Shown piece after piece: positions 5,168 to 11,238 of a stretch of DNA of 64,000 nt. Location: contig MU270077.1 of the NCBI GenBank assembly GCA_021432635.1, positions 209,531-273,530 on the forward strand. Direction: 5' to 3'. The notes under the pieces were generated by a model. It had not been told where the DNA came from. It made no database searches and was given only the letters and a program-made list of their open reading frames with translations. Position 1 is the first letter of the stretch. Every line of letters starts with the position of its first letter. This DNA comes from Thozetella sp. PMI_491 (taxonomy: Eukaryota; Ascomycota; Sordariomycetes; Chaetosphaeriales; Chaetosphaeriaceae). The translations under genes were made by a program, and so were the position numbers.

Positions 5168-7084
5168 ATGGCTCCTAGTGACGAAGTCCACGTGGGCGCA
5201 AGCTCGTCCCCCGAAGCGGCTCCCGACAACACGGCCGAGGCTCTGAAGGGAGAAGTCGCCGACGAGGGATATGAGTTATTCGAAAGGACTGGCCGGGAAG
5301 CTGTTACCGAAGAAGCGAGCAATGCAGTGCGGCGGAAGCTCGACCTCCGGCTGCTGCCGCTCATGTGCTTTCTTTACGGCCTAAATTATGTTGATGTAAG
5401 CCTTGTTTCGCAGTTGTTGATTTCTTCCTCTTGGTATATGTCTCACGAACACTGCTTCCGAGACATACTCCGAACGCACGCATAAAAGGCAATTTATTGA
5501 CTGAGAAACCTGAATAGAGTCCGTCTCCCCATGCTCCTTTTTGCCATTTTCAATATCGGGAGCATTTGAGCTCCTGCTCTTGGGACATGCTCCGGGTAGC
5601 TATAGAAACATCCATTCTGGGAGATTACTGACACTGGGTCATGGATAGAGGTTGCCATGGGCTGGGCAGTACTGTTCAACTTCCGCCAGGACCTCGGCCT
5701 TGTCGGTGATCAGTATTCATGGGCAAGCTCTATGTTCTATTTCGCCTACCTGGTATCTCAGTATCCCGCCAACTATATCCTCCAGAGATACCCCACGGCC
5801 AAGGTGTTGAGCTGCTCCGTGATTTGCTGGGGTGTCCTAATGCTTGGGTGAGTATCGGGCTATTTTCTTTTCTGCTTAGAATGCTGCTCACCATATCTCT
5901 GCCTCCAGTCACCTTGGCCTCAAGAACTTCGCAGGCCTTCTGGTTCTCCGATTCCTTCTTGGCGTTGCCGAATCCGTTGTTACTCCGGGCTTTGTGCTGT
6001 ACACCTCCATGTTTTATACGCGAAGCGAGCAGGTGTACCGCACGATGGCCTGGGCAGCCATGCAGGGACTCTTCTCCATCATATCCAGTTTACTATCGTT
6101 CGGTCTCGGCCATATTACGAACACGGCCCTACGGCCTTGGGAGTATATCTTCCTTGTTCTTGGGCTGCTCAGCATCCTCTGCGGTGTCTGCTGGCTGTTC
6201 TTTATGCCCGAAACGCCTAATAAGACTCCCTTCTTAAATGAACGAGAGCAAGCCATTGCGGTTCACCGGGTTGCACAGAACATGATGGGAATCAAGAGCT
6301 ACCAGTGGAAATCTTACCAAATCTGGCACGCGGTCAAGGACCCTAAGACCTGGCTCATCTTGGCATTCGTTCTATTTACCCAACTGCCCAATGGAGGTCT
6401 TACTAGCTTCGGATCTCTCGTCATCTCCGGCTTTGGATTCGACTCATTCAGGACTCTACTTATCGGGCTGCCTTCGTCTGTCGTCAGTGCGGGAGGCATG
6501 ATAGTCTGGGGTATCTTTTCGATCAAGTACCCAAACCTCAGAACCTGGGGCATGATCGTCCCTCTTCTGCCTGCCATCGCTGGCATCTCCGCTGTCTACG
6601 CAACGATGAATACTGGGGCGAACAAATATGGCCGAGTCGTGGCCTACTGGCTCATTAACTCTTACGCAATCACTGTGAGTTCGGTCTACCCCAGATGCGG
6701 CATCCAAACGTCTACTAACCCTCAACCCTCATCCAGTGGCCGTTCGCTCTCACCATGGTTGGTCAGAATGTGGCCGGCCATACCAAACGCGCCATCACGA
6801 ACACAATGCTGCTGGTTATTTTTGCAGCTGGAAATATCGCGGGACCTTTCTTCTTCCGTGCCCAGGACGCACCCGGATATGTGCTAGCGATCGCCACCAT
6901 TCTCATCTTCTTCTGTCTCGCATTTTTCAGCGGCATTGCTCTCCGGGTCTACATGATTTTCGAGAATCGCAGGAGAGATCGCGTTTATGGCGTGCTGAGC
7001 ACGGAAGAGAAGGTGGATGGCATGCGCTTGGGGATGCACGATAGAACGGACTTAGAGAACACGGATTTCAGATATGTTCTATAA
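5168..7084 (+). CDS. MFS transporter, Dal5/anion:cation symporter type
   Basis: Plasma-membrane permease of the allantoate-permease-like (ACS) branch of the major facilitator superfamily; the likely substrate is a carboxylate or vitamin-like anion. I join exons 5168-5395, a single nucleotide at 5518, 5649-5847, 5909-6674 and 6737-7084, giving 1,542 nt and 513 aa with the frame closing exactly. The N-terminal tail is acidic. The first helix region reads GLNYVD-K-VAMGW, and the Asp-Lys pair is a feature of this family. Later come SQYPANYILQRYP, a central loop with PETPNKTP, and WPFALTMVGQN in the C-terminal half. Intron 2 (5519-5648) is the introner-like copy described separately. The methyltransferase gene downstream is convergent and may share a pathway, but nothing proves it. 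Confidence 0.9.
5396..5517 (+). other. MFS intron 1, abutting a one-nucleotide exon
   Basis: GTAAGC donor after the Asp codon of GLNYVD and an acceptor ending in GAATAG. It is followed by one nucleotide (A at 5518) and then at once by another intron. After removal of the downstream intron, this acceptor would face AAG GTT GCC ATG, coding Lys-Val-Ala-Met. Confidence 0.6.
5519..5648 (+). repeat. Introner-like intron element, copy 1 (130 nt)
   Basis: This intron starts GTCCGTCTCCCC and ends GGTCATGGATAG. It shares sequence along its length with the intron at 9897-10034 in an unrelated F-box gene. In the first 33 nt, 25 positions match and seven of the eight differences are transitions. An internal 46-nt stretch starting ATCGGGAGCA matches at 39 positions without gaps. 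The inverted repeat CGGGAGCAT (5557-5565) and ATGCTCCGG (5587-5595) can form a stem. The branch-point candidate is ACTGACACT. The hexamer ATAGAG occurs on both flanks of the element, at its left junction and at its 3' end. Confidence 0.8.
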
Positions 7085-7338
7085 GCTGATACAATCTATA
7101 TAAGTTGACCTAGGCCAAGCCTTGGCTGCCTCGAGCGGGGTTAGAGGCTGGGCGACGCCACCGACTATGTATGCGGCTGCGGGCTATGCAGCCAAGCTAG
7201 CTAGCCGCCCTGATAGCCACGGTTCCTAAGCTATAATTATACAACTAGTCAAGTATCCTATTAGTGGTGGAGTAAACAGGTAACCGCAGATACTAATCAG
7301 ACATCTGACTTGCGGCCACTCTACAGCACTCGTACTAC

Positions 7339-8232
7339 CTACTCTACCCTAGTGATGGTAAAAAGCAAGCGGCGGCTGTTTTCATCCTCAACAGGACTGT
7401 CAGGGTTAATCCCAACCATGTCCATGGTGCCTTCTACTTTCCATCGCGTCTGCGTCGCCTCCCCAATCTCCTTCCACATAGCATCGAGCGACTCTACACT
7501 GTGCCTGTAGCTGAAGCTCTTTTCCTTGATCGCGGCCACATTCCCCGGCTGAACGCTGCCGATCTGCCTGCCGACGATAACCCCCCCTTTGTTCAAGAGT
7601 TTCGCGACTTGCTTGCCAGCAGTGATCTGCTCGTCGAGCATAAACAGGTGGAAAAAGGCGCTGCAGTGTATGACGTCGTGGCCGCGCTCCTCCAGGCTTG
7701 TCCATACCTCTCCTTGCGCTGCTCCCTTGAAAACGTCGGCAACCACGAACCGCGACTGCAGCGTCTCTCTGTCGAGGAAAAAATCGTAACCCAGTTCCAT
7801 CAGAGACCTTTCGATATCAAGGCCGACAACGTGCCGGGACGGGACACCGTCTTGGACGAGCTGGCGTAGATCCTGCCCAAAGCAGCATCCTATATCTAAA
7901 TAGGCGGCATCTGGGCGCTTGAGACGCTCGACAATTGTGTCATACAGAGGATGCGTGAGCAGGGTGAGGTTTGCAAACCGGTAAAGGCCGATGCACGGGT
8001 AAGGATTGGCCACAAACCCGCGTTCTCGCTATAGCTCGATTAGGATGTTATGGGCCATGGAGTTTCGGGCCCCGATGCCTACTATCTTGTTGACGTGCTC
8101 TACAACCTCAGAACTGGGCACCTTGGAGTAGCTCTCTAGGAGCTTGCGGATAGGCTCGTTAACTTCCGTCAACTCTTGCTGATACCATCCTCGGTTTCGC
8201 TCGGGAAATGAGGTTTCGTTCGTGGCTGCCAT
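7339..8232 (-). CDS. SAM-dependent methyltransferase, fungal meroterpenoid-cluster type
   Basis: Predicted class I methyltransferase resembling the small methyltransferases of fungal meroterpenoid clusters (AusD type), which methylate carboxyl or hydroxyl groups of intermediates. Exons 8083-8232 and 7339-8028 join across a 54-nt intron to give 279 aa. The junction restores HVNKI-RERGFVANPYPCIG, which is typical of the family; without splicing, an in-frame TAG interrupts it. SAM motif I reads YLDIGCCFGQDLR, and VVGLDIE is the following acidic loop. The start chosen is the Met of MAATNETSF, because upstream sequence in frame is not family-like. It is convergent with the MFS gene and divergent from the F-box gene. 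No polyketide synthase, prenyltransferase or cyclase lies nearby, so its substrate is unknown. Confidence 0.88.
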
Positions 8233-8951
8233 ATTTACAATCAGACTACTCGGGTCGTAGAATCCGTTGATGGAGACGAAAGAGCAGCGAAATGCTGGTT
8301 TTGGGTTGGCAGACTGCCCTAATCTCGCTGCAGAGTGTAGGAGTTGAATAAAGAGCACAGGGGCCAAATGAGGAGGGACAGAGGGAATTAAATCACCAGC
8401 CAAATGAGGAGGCAGAGGCAAATAAGGGATAAAGCCGAAGATCGGGGCTACGGTCGTAGTGGGCCATCTGACACGAAGCCAATACATCTATCTGGGGTTT
8501 GGCGACAGGATTCGTGGTCAATGAGGTCCAAGCTAACAATCTTTCCAGGACCAGAGTCAGCACTAATACCTACCGGTAGGTATTCGTCACGATCCCCGGG
8601 AAAGAAGGGCCCCGGATACCGACTATTAGGACTGCTAGCGAGGGGCATAACAAGAGTCTTGGTAAGCGGGAAATCCTCTGTCTCGGGAAGATGCTTGGAC
8701 TGGTCACGTGAGAGCGCGACCTGGGTCGTGCCGCACGAGTCCCGATGTGGACAGCGGCAGGCAGCAGCCACAGGCAGCTACCGCAGCCTAGGCCAATTTC
8801 GCGTGGAGCTAAAGCACCGAAACGCCTATTTCAACCCTCTGCGCGCCTCCTAATGCCCTTGTCCGCGAATTCCAGGGTGCTTTCCAGCAGATCATTCGCA
8901 CGGCTCCAGGCGTGTTTACCCTTGGAATTTCCCCAACCCCGAGCCAGCAGA
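8233..8951. promoter_or_regulatory. Divergent promoter with a perfect 20-bp palindrome
   Basis: This 0.7-kb gap separates the divergent methyltransferase and F-box starts. At 8565-8584 it carries AATACCTACCGGTAGGTATT, a perfect 20-bp palindrome centred on ACCGGT. Such a site would suit a dimeric regulator, but its function is inferred only from symmetry and position. Confidence 0.5.
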
Positions 8952-11238
8952 ATGGTCTCTACACGAAGTGCCCGCGGGTCTCGACCGCCGCAAGCCGAGC
9001 TTGTGGCGGAAGAGCAAGCCAATGGCGACCCTCCGGCAGGCACCTCCGCATCGACACGGAAAGCCGCTGAGAGGGCCAGGAAGGGGCGCGCTGGAACTGC
9101 ACCCAAGCCCAGCAAGCAGAGCAAAGGAGCGAAGGCACCGGACCGCACCCTCTCGGAGGGCAAAAATCACTTGCAATCTCTGCCGCCCGAGATTCTGACC
9201 ATGGCCCTTGCTAACCTCGAAGATGTGCCGAGTATGAGCGCGCTGGGCCGAACCTGCAAAGCTTTCTATTCCATGATGATGCCTCGGGTCTACGGCCGCA
9301 TTGCCGTCGCCGCCATGTTTCACGCACACATTCCGAAGCTCATCCGGACCGTCGAGCCTCTTCTCACCATCGCACAGAAGAAGCAGCTGAAGAGGGAAGG
9401 CAAGTACCGTGGGCAGCAAGAGCGATATCCCACCGGACTCGACGAGCAGGCAAAGCCCTTTTGTACATCCTGCGTCCGTCAATTAGTCGTGGGTGTCGCG
9501 GACCCTGGGAAGAAGCACAAGTACATTGTCGTAAGATATGTGGAAGAGCTGCTCAAGAACCTGGATAATCTGGAGATTCTTGAGACCCGCATACTCACCA
9601 AGTGAGTACTCTATACTCGTTGCCGCCCCTTCGCTTCACCCTCATTCCCTCCTAGCACGGCTAACGCGTGCGAAAGGTCGATCGCTGAGAGTCTTGCGGC
9701 GCGAAAGAGCCTAAAAGCTCTCAACCTGTTCACGAAGATGCCGGACAATGAAGACGTGACGGCACTGTCGCAAATAAAAAATTTGAAGCACTTGAGCATA
9801 CACGACACCGACTGGGGTTTCTCTACGCCGTCAAAGATCTTGCAGTCCATAATCAAAAATTCGGCGTCGTCGTTGGAGAGCCTAACCGTTCAGATGGTCT
9901 GTCTTCCCGTGTTTTTCATTGCCATTTTCGTCAAAGATCGGGAGCATTTTGGCTGCTGCTCTTGAGAGATGCCTCGGGTAGCAACCTAAATAAAAATCCG
10001 CTCTAGAATAGTACTAACACTAAGGCGTGGATAGAGTGGCCTTTACACTAATGGTCATTTGCTGGTCGACTGGGGGTCCCAGGTTCCGGCCGGAGAAACC
10101 GCTGCTGCACCCGAGAAAAAAGCCATCTTTCAAGCCTTGAAGTCTCTCGATCTGACCTTTTATCACGCCGAAAGCGATGCGATTCGAGCTATGGTCTCGG
10201 CTATTGATTTTACCCAGCTGAACGAGCTCGCGATTGGCAACTGCCACAGCGATAATAGTCTCCTGTTTCGACACCTTGCTGGCTTGAATGATTCCTCGTC
10301 AACCGGGACCTCAAGAATGAAGTTGCGACACTTGTGCCTGACGATGGATGACGGTAGTCCCTCGCGCTTAACCCCCGAAGAACGTAGGGAGCATTTGGAA
10401 GCTAAGTGTCGCTTCATCTCCTCGTTCGACACCTTGGAGACATTGCAGCTAGAGGATTATGGGCAGTACCCCGAGAATGCCTCTATCACGAATCCCGGGC
10501 TTGTAGATGTGGTGTTGCAGGCCATCCTCTGTCACCGCGGCCTGCGAGTGTTGAGGATATCCTACAGGGGAAAGATGAGTGGATATGCCATCCCTTATCT
10601 GTCGGCGGCAACTGTCGGAGCGATAGTTGATGGTTTACCGCAACTAAGGGAGTTCCAGTTTGCCCCAGACGAGGTTCAAATGGTAAGTAGCTCAACTTGC
10701 GGCCCATTCCTTCCCCCGGCGAAGAGGTCGTGGCTCCGCTGCCGAACCAACTGGCTGATTTGCATCTTTCCGACACCAGGATGAGATTGGCCGAGTGCTT
10801 TCTCGCGGCACGAGCTTATCGTCTATCACTTGCTTTCCACATACTAGCTGGGGGTCCTACCCACCACCTACCGATCCTGGCTCCAACATACTTTCTGGCA
10901 TCCTGAACGGTTTCCTGAATCACCCAGAGTTCTCTGGTCGATCCAATAGGCACGCTGATGGCCACCTAGTCGATAGTGGCAATAGAGTCGACAGTTCACT
11001 TTTCGTATGGGAGAGGAGATACAACCTCGCGAAAATATCTACTAGCTATAGGAAGTGGGAAGTAGCGTCACAATTCCCCGATAAGAGCACAAAGGGGATG
11101 AAGCAGCCGGAGCAGATAAAGAGTGAGGATGGGAAGCGCCAGGTCTGGTCTCGAGACGTTACGGGGATGGATCGAGTGCGGATACATGTCGGGTACGATC
11201 CTGACTTTGAATGGGTAGAGAAAGTCAGCGGTCAGTAG
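8952..11238 (+). CDS. F-box protein with leucine-rich-like C-terminal region
   Basis: Likely substrate adaptor of an SCF ubiquitin ligase. Exons 8952-9601, 9677-9896, 10035-10682 and 10780-11238 join in frame to 658 aa. The first 70 residues are basic, rich in Lys, Ala and Pro, and probably disordered. The F-box follows as LQSLPPEILTMAL to RTCKAFYSMMMPRVYG (about residues 75-115). The rest has repeated Leu-rich segments such as KALNLFTKM, LKHLSIHDTDW, SLDLTFY, ETLQLEDYG and RVLRISYRG, consistent with degenerate leucine-rich repeats. Upstream in-frame Met codons exist; I chose 8952 as the start that gives a typical basic leader, with moderate certainty. Intron 2 (9897-10034) is the second introner-like copy and falls between two Leu-rich segments. 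Confidence 0.85.
9897..10034 (+). repeat. Introner-like intron element, copy 2 (138 nt)
   Basis: This intron starts GTCTGTCTTCCC and ends GGCGTGGATAG, and is phase 0 between CAG ATG and AGT GGC. It is homologous along its length to the MFS intron at 5519-5648. The stem-loop arms CGGGAGCAT (9939-9947) and ATGCCTCGGG (9969-9978) are retained with a bulge, and the branch-point candidate is ACTAACACT. As in copy 1, the nucleotides after the 3' splice site are AG. The host genes are unrelated, so common descent of the genes cannot explain the similarity. Confidence 0.82.

Follow-up and report, generated by a model that had tools for sequence, protein, structure and literature searches.

Two similar introns in unrelated genes of Thozetella sp. 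PMI_491 probably belong to a dispersed introner family

Two introns lying in unrelated genes of a 64-kb stretch of the genome of Thozetella sp. PMI_491 (Chaetosphaeriaceae, Chaetosphaeriales, Sordariomycetes) are most probably copies of one introner (introner-like element) family, as judged from sequence comparison. The genome comprises 72.3 Mb in 157 contigs, and the window, i.e. the whole stretch of DNA analysed, corresponds to C63:209531-273530. A short intron of about 134 nucleotides (nt) has apparently been copied into many unrelated genes of this fungus, and the two window introns can therefore be regarded as members of the family. The sequence-only reading from which the analysis started had proposed such a family, and had named the absence of further intronic copies as the outcome that would speak against it. 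The opposite was found, since merged BLASTN and pattern searches of the whole genome located at least 89 distinct, dispersed places.

The first window intron (introner copy 1, 5519-5648, plus strand, 130 nt) is situated in a gene of the major facilitator superfamily (MFS; allantoate-permease-like), and the second (introner copy 2, 9897-10034, plus strand, 138 nt) in an F-box/leucine-rich repeat (LRR)-like gene. Their donors are GTCCGT and GTCTGT, respectively, and both close with GGATAG followed by exonic AG. The branch-point-like motifs TACTGAC (5626-5632) and TACTAAC (10012-10018), both on the plus strand, may act as branch points; most of 30 aligned copies have TACTAAC. The coordinates and match counts given at the outset proved exact: 25 of the first 33 nt are identical, seven of the eight differences are transitions, and the core that opens with ATCGGGAGCA (from 5555 and 9937) is identical at 39 of 46 positions. 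When the second intron was used as a genome-wide query, it retrieved the first at E = 6.6e-14 with 72% identity, so that their resemblance cannot be due to chance. The two introns scored 150 and 123 bits, respectively, against a family covariance model of 30 members, both window copies being among them, so that each score includes the intron's own copy; within the 64-kb window the model matched only these two introns at E up to 10.

With the window introns as BLASTN queries, at least 40 places were found with the first (40 of 80 candidates scored) and 39 with the second, and a third BLASTN search yielded at least 41 (40 of 96 candidates scored). Four pattern searches allowing up to three mismatches returned 34, 53, 67 and 36 places, and their reversed-pattern controls none. 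The figure of 89 is a lower bound, as two of the BLASTN searches scored 40 of their candidates and older copies diverge. The flanks of 55 places were examined, and a copy on C48 was studied separately as the 56th. All 55 copies can be aligned end to end, and in 51 of them the aligned element has exactly GT...AG as its termini, i.e. the similarity is bounded near the exon-intron borders. Introner families have been defined as at least four introns alike over their whole length (PMC9860276), and the Thozetella family is of this kind, its hosts moreover being non-paralogous apart from some MFS paralogs with copies at different positions, as described below. The most frequent donors among the 55 copies are GTCCGT (29), GTACGT (7), GTCAGT (6) and GTCTGT (5), the terminal GGATAG is present in 28, and the branch-like TACTAAC shows good conservation across the 30 aligned copies. 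Introns are common in fungal genes and repeats can land in them, and a repeat inserted into pre-existing ordinary introns could therefore be considered; such a repeat would, however, leave unrelated sequence at the intron ends, and similarity over the entire intron, GT and AG included, in 51 of 55 copies makes this explanation highly improbable. One copy (C1:1958382, L059) has the donor GCAAGT and may represent a GC..AG introner; its host is a sugar-transporter gene with a domain that extends over the junction.

Exact removal of the copy restored the coding frame in many hosts. In 47 of the 55 cases the spliced sense frame exceeded the antisense frame in length (P = 8e-8), with medians of 237 (spliced sense), 92 (antisense) and 147 codons (unspliced sense). 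Five of the eight exceptions can nevertheless be recognised as sense genes on other grounds, namely the window MFS gene, a GH30 gene on C93, the C5 and C65 MFS genes, which have same-strand matches, and a tandem copy on C37; the other three are C1:1056962, C7:809130 and C69:294812. Thirty spliced translations were scanned against Pfam, comprising 28 of 36 extracted frames (seven of the 36 were left out), the first 505 residues of the F-box protein and the window MFS protein. In 22 of them a domain extends across the junction (8/10, 8/10 with two weak, and 6/10 by batch), with junctions at the edge of a Pfam match (C73, C49 and the F-box protein) being uncounted. Each copy is presumably spliced out, so that its insertion into a gene would be tolerated. 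The scanned hosts match 20 Pfam families above the cut-off, including peptidases, desaturases, P450, AMP-binding and GH30 proteins. That similar introns are merely shared through gene duplication or conversion between paralogs, with no mobile family involved, might be suggested by the several hosts that belong to the MFS transporters, which form a large family of paralogs. This view is already contradicted by the unrelated hosts and can hardly be credited, for the flanks have no common pattern and the copies in MFS paralogs occupy different positions. Membrane transporters make up 10 of the 30 scanned hosts, and seven of these ten are MFS or sugar transporters.

Several observations weigh against the interpretation of the family as spliced introners. 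Thirty-three of the 89 places are represented without their flanks, and four of the 55 copies are not GT..AG, one being GC..AG (C1:1958382) and three having altered ends. The unspliced frame exceeds the spliced one in nine of the 55 cases, a host gene could not be established for three (C1:1056962, C7:809130 and C69:294812), and eight of the 30 translations have no domain clearly spanning the junction. The public models of the two window genes also disagree with those proposed here: the MFS model P0056 begins downstream of the introner and gives no support to the exon structure described below, and the F-box model P0001 uses other splice sites, with 19 residues fewer at the introner. Since both public models differ at the introners, surveys of introners based on annotation may undercount them.

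To the same side belongs the composition of the insertion sites. The first exonic base after the intron (+1) is A in 28 of 51 copies (background 0.218, P = 3e-7), and C immediately precedes the intron (-1) in only four of 51 (background 0.294, P = 3e-4); both biases were chosen post hoc from 24 positions, and neither plain break repair nor random breaks predict them. Flank strings of length 5 or more are shared in five of 51 copies against about 2.8 expected from shuffles, most flanks being at the shuffled level, and no shared pattern beyond the +1/-1 bias was seen by eye. In favour of the family, the phases are spread, 0, 1 and 2 being represented by 16, 14 and 20 copies among 50 frames of at least 80 codons, the frame having been picked by length, which is wrong in some cases, e.g. 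C4:221596. Insertion thus looks seamless but not wholly random. Non-random sites and shared flank strings are what might be expected if the introners had been spread by a non-autonomous DNA transposon, as in algae, with the splice sites carried by the element or co-opted from a target-site duplication. No consistent target-site duplication was detected in the 51 copies, however, the best position-wise excess among hundreds of position pairs having z = 2.1. Furthermore, in 51 of 55 copies the element begins and ends exactly at the two splice sites, and 47 of 55 copies look sense-oriented.

The ends of the element were also considered with respect to terminal inverted repeats and RNA structure. 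The consensus fold (RNAalifold) contains 20 pairs, none with changes on both sides, and in it no long terminal inverted repeat was seen, only a 5-bp helix. This near-terminal complementarity is paired in 92.7% of the cells of 30 copies, compared with 21-42% when slid by 1-3 columns, which could be taken as a point in favour of a DNA transposon. The same level of pairing was, however, reached by 447 of 500 column shuffles and no near-terminal pair exhibits a two-sided change, so letter conservation alone explains the helix, and the terminal inverted repeats typical of a DNA transposon were not found beyond these 5 bp without covariation in the 30 copies. A conserved RNA structure was rejected on the same grounds, both the consensus fold and the near-terminal helix being without two-sided changes. 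Folding energies were slightly below those of shuffles (mean z -0.87), with 18 of 55 copies below -1.5. A known RNA family was rejected as the identity of the element, as an Rfam scan of 5300-10200 with E up to 1 gave no match, and so was a viral source, as no exact match to the 24-nt core was found in viral contigs. Ascomycete introner families have been described as outliers without terminal inverted repeats or target-site duplications (PMC9860276), and taken together the transposon origin appears improbable.

The element would rather be a spliceosomal intron, about 134 nt long, that is complete and self-sufficient, with its own donor, branch point and acceptor. Its copying may proceed via the RNA of the excised intron, which would enter the genome through reverse splicing or through ligation into a DNA break, with subsequent conversion to DNA. 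Insertions made by such a route would be seamless and on the sense strand, and would have no target-site duplications. The ligation of intron RNA into DNA breaks has been proposed in the Discussion of PMC12403724, and the literature consulted for ascomycetes leans towards RNA-based copying. By the lack of a consistent target-site duplication and of a covarying terminal stem, the Thozetella family resembles other ascomycete introners, which suggests copying through RNA, and we consider passage through the excised intron RNA the moderately probable route.

With regard to the age of the family, the 55 copies have a mean pairwise identity of 79.5% and a maximum of 96.3%, and the median identity to the nearest neighbour is 90%. 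Subfamilies are present, yet only six of 54 internal nodes have a support of at least 0.9. No two of the 55 copies are identical, so present activity is not shown. The sequence-only reading had described the family as active or recently active; its spread in the past is borne out, but the nearest-neighbour values do not indicate a fresh burst in the 55-copy sample. Compared with the majority sequence, transitions and transversions number 545 and 385, an excess milder than that within the window pair. Repeat-induced point mutation was not clearly indicated, C>T changes at CpA (11.1%) being only slightly above those in other contexts (7.8-9.7%) and those in the mirror context TpG being low (4.3%).

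The first window intron is not alone in the MFS gene, since it begins 1 nt past the acceptor of another intron. In the exon model (plus strand), exon 1 (5168-5395) ends with GAT (Asp) and is followed by an upstream intron (5396-5517, GTAAGC...ATAG), a single A at 5518, the introner (5519-5648) and AG-GTT; the remaining exons are 5649-5847, 5909-6674 and 6737-7084, the end at 7084 being taken from the stop codon. With A 5518 retained as a putative 1-nt exon, which yields the conserved Lys of the motif NYVDK, the protein has 513 amino acids with PF07690 over residues 67-435, and reads NYVDKVAMGWAVLF, exactly as in close homologs such as P0058. Without it, the frame shifts and a stop follows after 129 amino acids. 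Because the introner starts 1 nt past an existing acceptor, a conserved MFS protein requires the 1-nt exon. Among the matches listed (119 other proteins of 340), 27 of the 30 best contain NYVDK, as do 41 of the 98 with at least 470 amino acids, and a looser motif ending in DK is present in 90 of these 98. The introner would have landed 1 nt beyond the existing acceptor, and the two introns on either side of the 1-nt exon would be excised in turn; since both have complete signals, consecutive splicing is possible in either order.

Removal of 5396-5650 as a single 255-nt intron would be an alternative for this gene, giving an in-frame product without the Lys and without any 1-nt exon. Its distal sites (GTAAGC...ATAGAG) are canonical, the frame is kept with only the Lys lost, and nested stwintrons have been reported to be removed whole via distal sites (PMC12403724). 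Conservation of that Lys in the listed homologs and the complete signals of each shorter intron speak against it, and we regard it as possible, if on the unlikely side, the 1-nt exon remaining the preferred model. The upstream intron may possibly be an older, diverged introner, as 73 of 114 aligned positions agree with the family majority sequence. Its global likeness to the family was reached by none of 442 GT..AG segments of 122 nt in the window and by 2 to 26 of 1000 end-preserving shuffles, which is suggestive but post hoc, and its local alignment to the family was not significant, 41 of 500 shuffles reaching the score.

A second case of abutting introns was found on C37 (L036), where only CT, an apparent 2-nt exon, separates two copies (98518-98651 and 98654-98787). 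TAT closes the second copy and is followed by CAG, and the reading frame opens once both copies are omitted. The two are 89.6% alike and each is closer to another family copy, so separate insertions fit better than duplication, and a tandem duplication as the origin of the pair was rejected. These are the only two known cases of a copy abutting another intron, too few for a statistical test.

The MFS paralogs provide a related picture. The Thozetella paralog nearest to the window MFS protein among the matches listed (67% identical) is the C48 gene, whose 149-nt copy (C48:440710-440858, L075) lies in the Val codon of the NYVDK motif, at residue 75 in phase 1; the public annotation excises it exactly (P0083, CYVDKACLAW). 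The window copy is at residue 77 in phase 1, 6 nt away from the C48 position. In a C5 MFS gene the copy (C5:511668-511801, L070) is in the second Asn of NNLDRS in phase 1, its equivalence to residue 74 resting on the motif, as the alignment stopped short of the junction. Other copies are found at residue 106 of a C4 MFS gene (C4:221596, at SM-F-YFGY), where the window gene has a continuous exon and no copy, and near residue 401 of a C65 MFS gene. These different positions speak for independent gains. The sequences suggest parallel gain in three MFS paralogs within a single motif (residues 74, 75 and 77), and three copies within ten bases suggest an insertion hotspot, recognised post hoc. A tentative and rather doubtful extension is that insertion of introner RNA favours sites where the spliceosome has just acted, or positions next to them, which would create the 1-nt exon at 5518, the 2-nt exon on C37 and the repeated MFS gains. 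If so, intron insertion would be coupled to splicing, and fungal genes would tolerate and splice 1-nt exons.

The F-box/LRR-like gene hosting the second window intron extends over 8952-11238 of the plus strand, with exons 8952-9601, 9677-9896, 10035-10682 and 10780-11238, and encodes 658 amino acids when 9897-10034 is removed. Its F-box and LRR matches are below the Pfam cut-off. The homologs P0002, P0003, P0004 and P0006 hold the stretch corresponding to that around the junction, ending in a conserved DW. A further unfavourable point is that the product is two residues longer than the homologs in the loop around the junction, as counted by eye; the exact junction at 9897-10034 is therefore likely from the sequence, and not proven by conservation.

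The origin of new spliceosomal introns is an old open question, for which families whose members are still mutually similar are the best material. The Thozetella family is large enough for statistics, and the MFS gene with two introns 1 nt apart can serve as a test gene for real splicing of a 1-nt exon. The kind of element is already known, and the family belongs to an order (Chaetosphaeriales) for which no introner report was found. The introner literature retrieved yielded none with Thozetella or Chaetosphaeriales; for Sordariomycetes it comprised work on Hypoxylaceae, plus one paper on Pleosporales. Searches for Thozetella introns, PMI_491, or introners together with microexons returned nothing on the Thozetella family. 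The main text of PMC9860276 makes no mention of Thozetella, and its supplementary species list may include the genome undiscussed.

In comparison with known systems, the family shares with the introner-like elements of the Dothideomycetes Fulvia, Dothistroma and Passalora (PMC4457414) the near-identical introns in unrelated genes and the genes with two copies, as well as parallel gains in a short stretch, which Collemare et al. described within 15 bp. Thozetella belongs to a different class, Sordariomycetes, and the two are likened by description, not by sequence. With the introners in the sense of Gozashti et al. 2022 (PMC9860276) it has in common the similarity extending to both intron ends, the many copies and the non-homologous hosts, and, like the ascomycete families treated there, it has no clear target-site duplication or terminal inverted repeat. 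The [D1,2] sister stwintrons and derived canonical introns of Hypoxylaceae and Xylariaceae (PMC8469720 and PMC12403724) are also found in Sordariomycetes, are inserted seamlessly without target-site duplication and are spliced consecutively where introns meet, as is predicted for Thozetella. The Thozetella elements are, however, single canonical introns, and the tandem introns 1-2 nt apart split no splice signal; in the MFS gene no internal intron divides the external donor between G1 and U2, as it does in a [D1,2] stwintron. Their 5-bp complementarity is also weaker than the 10-nt elements of the Xylariales stwintrons (PMC12403724). Finally, the single-nucleotide exon of Arabidopsis APC11 (PMC4674806) similarly lies between two complete introns, whereas the probable Thozetella counterpart involves an inserted introner and is deduced from protein conservation alone.

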